64,000 nucleotides of DNA from Alphaproteobacteria bacterium (GTDB lineage: Bacteria; Pseudomonadota; Alphaproteobacteria; Caulobacterales; Aquidulcibacteraceae): assembly GCA_027485915.1 (NCBI GenBank), contig JAIXQA010000075.1, positions 1 to 64,000 of the forward strand. Direction: 5' to 3'. Of this stretch, positions 1 through 56,815 are shown piece by piece. The notes below the pieces were generated by a model. It saw only the letters and a program-made list of their open reading frames with translations, ran no database searches and was not told the origin of the DNA. The position numbers and the translations under genes are program-made. How positions within the stretch are numbered: position 1 is the first letter of the stretch; every line of letters begins with the position of its first letter.

Positions 1-559
1 CAGCCACGTCTGCCCTGCTTAATCCCGCTTACCAATCCCCAACAGTCGGCTTAACTCGGACCGAAGCTCCTCCGCATCGGGGACAGGGGCAGATTACGTG
101 AGGTTCTGGGAGTGGGGGAGAAGTTTTGTTTTATCCCTGCTGATTTCCTCCCTCCGGCCCTACGTCGCGAGGTGGATGGGGGAACTTCCGATTTCATCTA
201 GAAGGCTTTGGTGCAGGCCCTGCCTGCCCCAAAAGCCAACTTCGATTATTTGTGGGCGATTTGACGAGTCAAGTCCGCTTCGCGCCATTGACGCGCGTTT
301 GGTTCTTTTGAACCAAGTTGCGCGTCTAAATCAAAAAATTAGGTCCACTACCTTTTTAAAAAAAGGATGTGGACCTAGGGCGGCAGATTTCCGAAGGAAA
401 TCTGGACTTGACGCGACCAATCGCCCGATCACGCTATTCAAAGCGGTTTGGTGGACCAAAGGGATCACCAAAACCGCGTCTAGACAAATTAGCTCTTCAA
501 AACCACCACCATCCCCTCCGGAATGCGGGGACTTCAGGGGACTTTGCGGTCCAAGATTC
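1..559. other. Left-edge non-coding stretch
   Basis: I see no convincing gene here. The open frames on the plus strand have no family signature, weak start context and a composition driven by inverted repeats. The left part (1-240) shows nothing I can name and may be the downstream flank of a gene outside the window. The right part (about 261-477) holds a cluster of strong inverted repeats, described separately. The next real gene ends at 560 on the minus strand. Confidence 0.6.
261..477. ncRNA. Candidate multi-stem structured RNA or palindromic repeat element
   Basis: Five perfect or near-perfect inverted repeats lie back to back. A 9-bp long-range helix pairs 268-276 (GTCAAGTCC) with 404-412 (GGACTTGAC). 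Inside it are a two-part hairpin (290-296 with 320-326, then 299-305 with 310-316, TTTT loop), a hairpin 340-348 with 369-377 extended by 351-356 with 361-366, and a 9-bp hairpin 384-392 with 396-404 with a GAA loop. A further bulged stem, 443-453 with 466-477, lies outside. Together they could form a closed multi-branch junction. Because the stems are palindromic, the transcribed strand is unclear. I know of no named family that matches; a dispersed repeat element is the main alternative. Confidence 0.45.
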
Positions 560-1015
560 TCAACCGGCCGGTTTGACCGTAATCTGCATGCGCCAGATCT
601 GTTCGGCTGGGCGGCCTGCCTCTAATTCCCAGGGCCGACCGTAGCGCAGGACGAGGATTTGGCCGGCAGTACCTTGCAAATCCACAGGCGCAGAAATGGT
701 TTGGAAGCGGAAGATAGTCCAATCATTGCCACCCACCATACCTTGATTGCGGCCTTCTGGATTTTCTGGCCGCGAGGATTTATCGACCAAAACCACGCCT
801 GCAGGCAGCGATTGGACATCCCAAAGATAGCCTGCGGTTGGCGTCCCCAATAGGCGCACTTCGAAGGTCTGACCGACCTTCAACATCTTGGCAGAGCCCG
901 TCTCTGCGGTTGAAAAAATCACGCTGCTAGACTTATCGGCTGGGGGTTGGGTTGCACACCCACTGAGGGCGGCAAGCACCATACTGAATAGCGCCCATTG
1001 CTTCACCGCGATCAT
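560..1015 (-). CDS. Chagasin-family (I42) cysteine protease inhibitor lipoprotein
   Basis: The 151-residue product begins with a lipoprotein signal peptide whose lipobox ends at Cys20 (LSGC). The rest shows the three loops that define chagasin/inhibitor I42 proteins: GTPTAGYLW at about 57-65, corresponding to the NPTTGY loop, GGNDWTIFRF at 95-104, and RPW at 127-129. In this family the three loops enter the active-site cleft of papain-like cysteine proteases. The predicted place is the inner leaflet of the outer membrane or the periplasm. It stands alone, with no cysteine protease next to it in this window, so the target (own or foreign protease) is unknown. Confidence 0.85.
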   Translation of the reverse strand: MIAVKQWALFSMVLAALSGCATQPPADKSSSVIFSTAETGSAKMLKVGQTFEVRLLGTPTAGYLWDVQSLPAGVVLVDKSSRPENPEGRNQGMVGGNDWTIFRFQTISAPVDLQGTAGQILVLRYGRPWELEAGRPAEQIWRMQITVKPAG

Positions 1016-12477: not shown

Positions 12478-12554
12478 GGCTGGGTAGCTCAGCTGGTTAG
12501 AGCGCACGACTCATAATCGTGAGGTCGAGAGTTCAAGTCTCTCTCCCGCCACCA
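12478..12554 (+). tRNA. tRNA-Met (anticodon CAT)
   Basis: A full cloverleaf of 77 bases with encoded CCA. D-arm GCTC...GAGC, anticodon stem CACGA (12505-12509) with TCGTG (12517-12521), loop CTCATAA with anticodon CAT at 12512-12514, T-stem GAGAG/CTCTC around TTCAAGT. The acceptor strands are GGCTGGG and TCCCGCC, which match elongator tRNA-Met of alphaproteobacteria apart from one mismatch at position 4 (T opposite C). The initiator tRNA is unlikely. An Ile2 tRNA with a modified C34 is possible but the acceptor stem argues against it. Confidence 0.88.
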
Positions 12555-54428: not shown

Positions 54429-54519
54429 GGAGACGTGGCCGAGAGGCTGAAGGCACTCGTTTGCTAAATGAGCGTGCTCCAAAAGGGCACCGAGGGTTCG
54501 AATCCCTCCGTCTCCGCCA
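54429..54519 (+). tRNA. tRNA-Ser (anticodon GCT)
   Basis: A class II tRNA of 91 bases with encoded CCA. The acceptor GGAGACG pairs fully with CGTCTCC (54509-54515), the discriminator is G. The anticodon stem CTCGT/ATGAG encloses TTGCTAA with anticodon GCT, the long variable arm GTGCTCCAAAAGGGCAC follows, and the T-arm is GAGGG-TTCGAAT-CCCTC. It reads AGC/AGU serine codons. Confidence 0.96.
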
Positions 54520-56473: not shown

Positions 56474-56519
56474 TCGCGCTTGGCAAAGCAAGCGCTTGCT
56501 GATAACCTCTAAGCGAGAT

Positions 56520-56707
56520 GGTGCTTCAGGAAACTGGGGTGAAAAGGGAATGCTGTGCGAGGGTTAGCCCCCAAATCAGCAGCCGTGCCTGCGACCGTAA
56601 GCGGATAGCCGCGTTTCTCTTGGCCAAAGCCAAGATGTGCCACTGGACCCCATTTGGGTTCGGGAAGGCCGAAACTAAGCCATGACCCGTAAGTCGGGAG
56701 ACCTGCC
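56520..56707 (+). promoter_or_regulatory. Cobalamin (B12) riboswitch
   Basis: The aptamer core is recognisable in order: GGTGCTTCAGG at 56520, GTGAAAAGGGAATGC at about 56540, a GCAGCCGTGCCTGCGACCGT segment, GGGAAGGCCG near 56662, and the B12 box AGCCATGACCCG...AGTCGGGAGACCTGCC at about 56678-56707. This is the proteobacterial adenosylcobalamin-type layout. It lies upstream of btuB and would switch off the transporter operon when B12 is plentiful. The following 150 bases can form competing helices that hide or free a strong Shine-Dalgarno (see findings), suggesting control of translation. Confidence 0.93.
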
Positions 56708-56815
56708 ATCGCCGTCGTTCGTCCGTCCTGCCAGGGTCAGCGGGAAGGCCGGAGTATACCTCCGATGCAACGACTGCAGGACGTGGGGCGCGTTGTGCGC
56801 ATCCGCCACTCTTGC

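Follow-up and report, generated by a model that had tools for sequence, protein, structure and literature searches.

We asked what kind of sequence occupies the left end of this DNA, where the first-pass annotation had reported nested hairpins outside any gene and had offered three readings: a structured RNA, a riboswitch-like leader for a gene beyond the edge, or a palindromic mobile repeat. The window, that is, the whole 64,000-nt stretch analyzed, comprises bases 1–64,000 of contig C63, from a 3.3-Mb genome in 82 contigs; its start is the contig start, and the element lies at this contig end. Rather than an RNA gene, the element is most likely a mobile DNA repeat. Elsewhere in the window lie a cobalamin riboswitch (56502–56724; RF00174, 101.3 bits) and tRNAs (12478–12551 and 54429–54516).

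Anatomy of the window copy

The hairpins originally reported (290–326, 340–377, and 384–404) and the stem at 443–477 are all present, and all appear in the predicted fold. The perfect 9-bp long-range helix said to enclose the first three, 268–276 with 404–412 (GTCAAGTCC/GGACTTGAC), is exact and extends further, into 23-nt arms (254–276/404–426) that are 87% matched. The suspicion that such nesting exceeds chance was borne out on both strands: the minimum free energy of 255–480 was −104.8 kcal/mol compared with −62.3 ± 4.6 kcal/mol for 200 shuffles (z = −9.3), and the opposite strand folded equally well (z = −9.2). Folded as DNA, 254–426 gave a z of −11.2.

The repeat unit spans approximately 197–484 (about 290 bp) and has TCTAGA-type ends. 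Working inward, an outer inverted repeat encloses a left hairpin and then a central stem that is capped by a branched tip; a right hairpin stands beside this stem. The outer inverted repeat (197–202 with TCTAGA at 479–484), the left hairpin (L1; 204–237), and the repetition of the unit across the genome were features absent from the first description. The central stem pairs a left arm (254–266), the part that varies among copies, with a right arm (414–426); the left arm ends in TTGACG, which is present as a direct repeat at 261–266 and 408–413. The branched tip (268–412) completes this stem. Its own stem (268–276 with 404–412) carries hairpin 1 (277–283, GCTTCGC), hairpin 2 (284–384), and hairpin 3 (385–403, AGATTTCC-GAA-GGAAATCT), the last showing double changes from A-U to C-G in relatives. 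Hairpin 2 is enlarged by an insert at ∼287–380 that contains the two extra hairpins at 290–326 and 340–377; this insert was found in the window and in 10 other aligned copies from three relatives, and short copies have GCCGC-NN-GCGGC in its place. In short genus copies, the predicted fold of the tip is a four-way junction from which three small hairpins extend. The right hairpin (R; 443–477) has a loop that is largely genome-specific, with GACCAAAG in 26 of 32 exact own-genome matches and GACCATAG or GACCATGG in seven of 12 Phycosocius matches.

Other repeats adjoin the unit. The contig begins within a separate multi-copy repeat of ∼500 bp, which we call the hub, whose right end (F5) occupies 1–191 on the plus strand; F5 is also close to the contig ends of C25, C42, C13, and C52. 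In the complete UKL13-1 genome, the hub repeat (L117:1290–1800) is present in 24 long copies, and seven of the nine genus genomes contain matches to it. In the draft genomes, many contig ends, the window start among them, carry the element and the hub. There was no fitting Rfam match for the hub in the loci scanned, and its identification as a HEARO/omega RNA was left unsupported by that scan. Adjoining the hub is an open reading frame of 126 aa, found once each in five genus genomes (L112, L123, and L156 among the loci) and present in the own genome only as C-terminal relics, of which the one in the window (22–141, minus strand) has one stop. It had no Pfam match at the family cut-off, and we found no support for it as a helper, since it is absent from G009, G012, and G013, which carry the frame of the element. 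On the other side, a repeat segment (F3; 487–549) follows the right hairpin in many own-genome copies. By eye, F3 and the segment B2 (L009:401–521) resemble head-to-head CGTC-tagged REPs as described in the accessible part of PMC3733652.

Copies and orthologous sites within the genus

The segment 255–480 matches 60 places in its own genome, and a copy lies no more than 700 bp from 28 of the 164 own contig ends (counted by hand), mostly pointing inward. A search with 1–549 matched nine of 120 genomes, namely, the own genome and eight others of the same genus, and none of the remaining 111. The R-hairpin pattern was recorded in Aquidulcibacter, Candidatus Phycosocius, and Hyphomonadaceae bacterium UKL13-1 (a complete genome), as well as in another Hyphomonadaceae assembly and an assembly labeled Maricaulis salignorans. 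The exact pattern occurred in no viral contig, and viral spread was rejected.

The copies, dispersed in these freshwater bacteria, are mosaics of palindromic modules in intergenic DNA. Among the extracted loci there were 92 distinct frames, classified by BLAST with hand-picked modules and with cut cores counted as forward or inverted: the core was forward in 39, inverted in 23, and unrecognized in 30. A second subfamily follows the same plan with a different left hairpin (L2) and a different core (K). The same plan with yet other arms (CGCGCAAGAT type) was seen at L321, L323, and L324 in the own genome and at L287–L289 in G008, a third subfamily. Only seven of the 92 frames overlap an open reading frame longer than 150 aa; one is the window copy, and we take the reading frame that crosses it (98–625) to be a chance one.

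The window's own site was compared in nine genomes, with modules identified by BLAST and remnants by eye. A full copy is present in the own genome. In the relative G014, the copy belongs to the same subfamily and its stem is emptied, GGGCGATTTGACG being joined straight to CGACCAATCGCCC; in G010, it belongs to the other subfamily and its core is cut. A collapsed remnant is seemingly present in G007 (by eye), and G013 has a right-end remnant at which its contig begins. The element is absent from the site in G008, G011, and G009, and G012 has different neighbors. At a second site (L021), the frame was found only in the own genome among the genomes compared. The same gene pair nearly abuts in six of eight relatives (G014, G013, G007, G010, G008, and G011), G009 has a short spacer, and G012 has another neighbor; the own genome contains other inserted sequence here too, so the gain was not a single clean insertion. 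At a third site (L018), the frame occurs in G014 as well as in the own genome, and other relatives have other palindromes or none (by eye).

Across 15 shared sites we collected 40 orthologous frame pairs, most of them anchored by one flank because copies end contigs. The subfamily differed in 16 of the 40 pairs, and the orthologue was the mutual best match in only two of the 24 pairs alike in subfamily, a comparison of one orthologue with the best of many paralogues and thus biased toward paralogues. Frame orientation was opposite in one pair, weakly. Our reading of these patterns is that copies at long-occupied sites probably exchange sequence with one another and that new copies are occasionally gained. 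By eye, we saw no clean target-site duplication in the repeat-rich flanks. A clean insertion with a GACG duplication was considered for the window site and set aside, the sequence being equally readable as slippage between the TTGACG repeats; slippage is preferred because losses of K-type cores use other short repeats and other junctions (by reading). Among the three readings first proposed, the palindromic mobile repeat is thus the one that these data favor, with many unlinked copies and with presence, absence, and differing versions at orthologous sites.

Compensatory change and the branched tip

Compensatory change was analyzed in an alignment (A1) of 11 full-form copies with a forward core, inverted and truncated copies being left out. 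Overall, 95.2% of cells were paired, and 13 of 91 pairs had changed on both sides, compared with a shuffled mean of 7.0 that none of 500 shuffles raised to the observed value. When partners were slid, pairing fell to 48.9% or less; because structures were derived from the very alignments tested, they are favored over slid versions, and cells count sequences rather than events. Four of the six pairs of the closing TCTAGA helix had changes on both sides, and helix 2 (the left hairpin) was 96.5% paired without any double-change pair. Departures from Watson–Crick pairing comprised 15 G.U and 12 A.C, and unpaired columns were less conserved than paired ones (0.78 vs. 0.93).

Cores of the K type (n = 35) were nearly perfectly paired, with 1242 of 1260 counted cells Watson–Crick and departures that included seven G.U and no A.C. 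An alignment of 26 cores that joined 18 of these 35 with seven A cores and one Phycosocius intermediate was 98.6% paired, with 102 double-change cells compared with 31.6 after shuffling. The tips of the two core types, A and K, are homologous. The structure of the element is under constraint or active upkeep. The first-pass annotation had posed covariation, as the sign of an RNA, and many copies, as the sign of a repeat, as alternatives; the search for copies and for compensating changes in this genome and its relatives found both together.

Relatives of the tip are present in further families within the order. When 299 relatives were searched with a covariance model built on the tip (E ≤ 0.01, with up to 14 candidates per genome scored), 33 matched, comprising the nine genus genomes and 24 others (two from the family and 22 from the order), some with weak scores. 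A second model, run on 385 genomes of the class (E ≤ 0.001, up to 12 candidates per genome scored), matched 10, the own genome included; of the other nine, G549, G649, G404, and G400 matched at E ≤ 2 × 10^−5, and five are doubtful. Four same-order genomes in the class sample had no match to this second model. Model E-values are rough and the filters strict.

Of 48 order-level copies, 47 have the letters TCAAG...CTTGA at the tip, and the remaining one is interrupted by a contig end. They were altered in three of the six copies displayed from G549, G404, and G649, and also in two A1 copies from G012. Many of the tips from beyond the genus carry two hairpins, with a short unpaired stretch in place of the third one seen in the genus. 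The sequence of the stem below the tip is near-random. We aligned (A4) 40 of the 47 copies (seven near-duplicates were removed, and two of the 40 come from genus member G008) with four typical genus cores, and counted 363 double-change cells compared with 118.5 after shuffling. Identity among copies was 0.32 in the 15 outer arm columns (composition expectation 0.27) and 0.76 in the tip. Of 653 arm cells, 561 (86%) were Watson–Crick, 15 G.U, 18 A.C, and 59 other; the search models score paired arms, so that matched arms were partly selected for and copies with poor arms missed. The models rank G.U above A.C, which leaves the equality of the two unexplained by search selection. Perfect arms of 19–20 nt, past the modeled arm, were seen in five copies from G135 and in several single copies, and G019 and others had several arm mismatches.

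Competing explanations and known systems

The first alternative to weigh is a family of structured noncoding RNAs with many gene copies, in which the branched tip would be a functional RNA fold. The strong compensatory change in all three alignments (A1, A+K, and A4) is what such a family predicts, as is the bias of the few departures in K cores toward G.U. Against it, the core lies in both orientations within its frame, the two strands fold alike, and the unpaired columns of A1 are the less conserved ones. A selected RNA fold is expected to tolerate G.U far more than A.C; the two are about equally rare in the order-wide arms, and DNA-level pairing is therefore favored. The Rfam check proposed at the outset returned no gathering-level match at the window element, and scans of 12 and a further six loci gave weak microRNA matches below gathering scores and one unrelated sRNA, none fitting the element. 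We consider the RNA reading unlikely: its covariation stood, and the strand symmetry, the inverted cores, and the G.U to A.C balance spoke against it. The segment L318:1613–1730 matches Rfam Cis8_sRNA (RF02646) with 65.2 bits, above the gathering score of 58. The other RNA reading, a riboswitch-like or other leader for a gene outside the window, has nothing beyond the fold itself in its favor, and we give it practically no credence. The gene that adjoins the element encodes a chagasin-family inhibitor (560–1015, minus strand; the next gene beyond encodes an adenosine deaminase) and runs toward it. On the other side, seen in five relatives (G007, G008, G010, G011, and G009), a small gene (DUF465, from one peptide tested) runs toward the site, and a terminator-like hairpin comes after it (by eye). 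Genes on both sides thus converge, and the site is 3′ of both; this orientation contradicts a leader at the window site, and three relatives have no element there at all. More generally, the repeat sits between genes, with a bias toward their 3′ sides: a direction could be assigned to 129 flanking genes, of which 82 point at the frame. This count relied on simple ORF calling, and orthologous sites enter it repeatedly.

Two further explanations accept mobility and name a transposase. The element could be a REPIN or other REP-type element moved by a RAYT (Y1) transposase, and it does behave like REP clusters, being extragenic, palindromic, built of paired hairpins, and biased to 3′ sides. The Y1 family (PF01797) was absent from all nine genus genomes, in a search whose control was positive in five of 14 named genomes, and no GTAG tag was apparent at the ends by reading; we regard this origin as very improbable. 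Alternatively, the tip could be a fragment of, or be carried by, IS110-family elements and be spread by their RNA-guided transposase. This is suggested by G649, a distant alphaproteobacterium in which a tip lies inside a ∼1.5-kb sequence with an IS110 transposase (L314:3516–5036), ∼150 bp from one end; the sequence is present in four near-identical copies. The case involves one genome only, where the element may simply have acquired the tip, and no transposase was among the proteins tested at three G549 loci, so we find the idea unlikely; the co-occurrence is a lead, not a link.

Taken together, the element is probably a dispersed, noncoding, non-autonomous palindromic mosaic DNA repeat, whose copies are homogenized by recombination and whose core is prone to loss and inversion. 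Under this reading of a mobile DNA repeat, the element would act, or be maintained, as a DNA hairpin or cruciform, and copies at long-occupied sites would be homogenized by recombination with other copies. The core could be lost by slippage between short direct repeats, for which TTGACG (261–266/408–413) gives the exact emptied form, and its orientation could be flipped by way of the inverted arms. An enzyme supplied in trans may have been needed for first insertion. The strong conservation of TCAAG/CTTGA in the stem suggests that a protein recognizes these letters. If the element affects its host, for example by insulating converging genes, that role would be secondary.

Possible, though doubtful, is a more specific extension, in which the tip is a minimal mobile DNA device at the axis of a palindrome whose stems are rewritten by arm-to-arm copying, and a host or trans-supplied protein that binds TCAAG/CTTGA drives its spread across the order and, sparsely, into other Alphaproteobacteria. 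The copying might take the form of hairpin replication or of self-templated repair, accompanied by flip/flop inversion like that of hairpin-ended replicons, and would keep otherwise unrelated stems matched, mostly without G.U or mismatched intermediates. The upkeep of common intergenic palindromic repeats is poorly understood, and a conserved tip on near-random, largely matched stems, with G.U no commoner than A.C, offers a testbed for separating selection on a fold from arm-to-arm DNA copying.

We found no published description of these repeats in the literature consulted, largely its openly readable part (including PMC2229807, PMC3733652, PMC10969869 on MITEs, and PMC10008586). Several known families are comparable. 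The CIR repeats of Caulobacter are described in the available text of PMC2229807 as intergenic, ∼110 bp long, and two-armed, with a conserved GANTC at the loop. Our element shares with them a home among Caulobacter relatives and the arms of an intergenic repeat, and differs, by that description, in being multi-branched and in lacking a conserved GANTC near the core, where the window has GAGTC and most A2 copies have GGGTC. CGTC-tagged REPs are likewise alphaproteobacterial and palindromic, with no dedicated transposase reported in the part of PMC3733652 that we could draw on; they are hairpins of 20–40 bp with CGTC at one end, whereas by reading our ∼290-bp element has TCTAGA-type ends. The MITEs RUP, Correia/NEMIS, and ERIC, as far as the accessible text of PMC2229807 covers them, share with the element non-autonomy, terminal inverted repeats (here the compensated outer helix), and long stem-loops, and the element is also dispersed, noncoding, and polymorphic for presence. 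It differs in having hairpins nested within hairpins and in that the Y1 search found no parent insertion sequence. Finally, the BIME/REP families, for which PMC3733652 is one source, are, like our element, extragenic mosaics of palindromes with many copies and 3′ enrichment; compared with them, the element is longer, was found without a RAYT, and combines a nested branched tip with two core orientations and variable paired arms.
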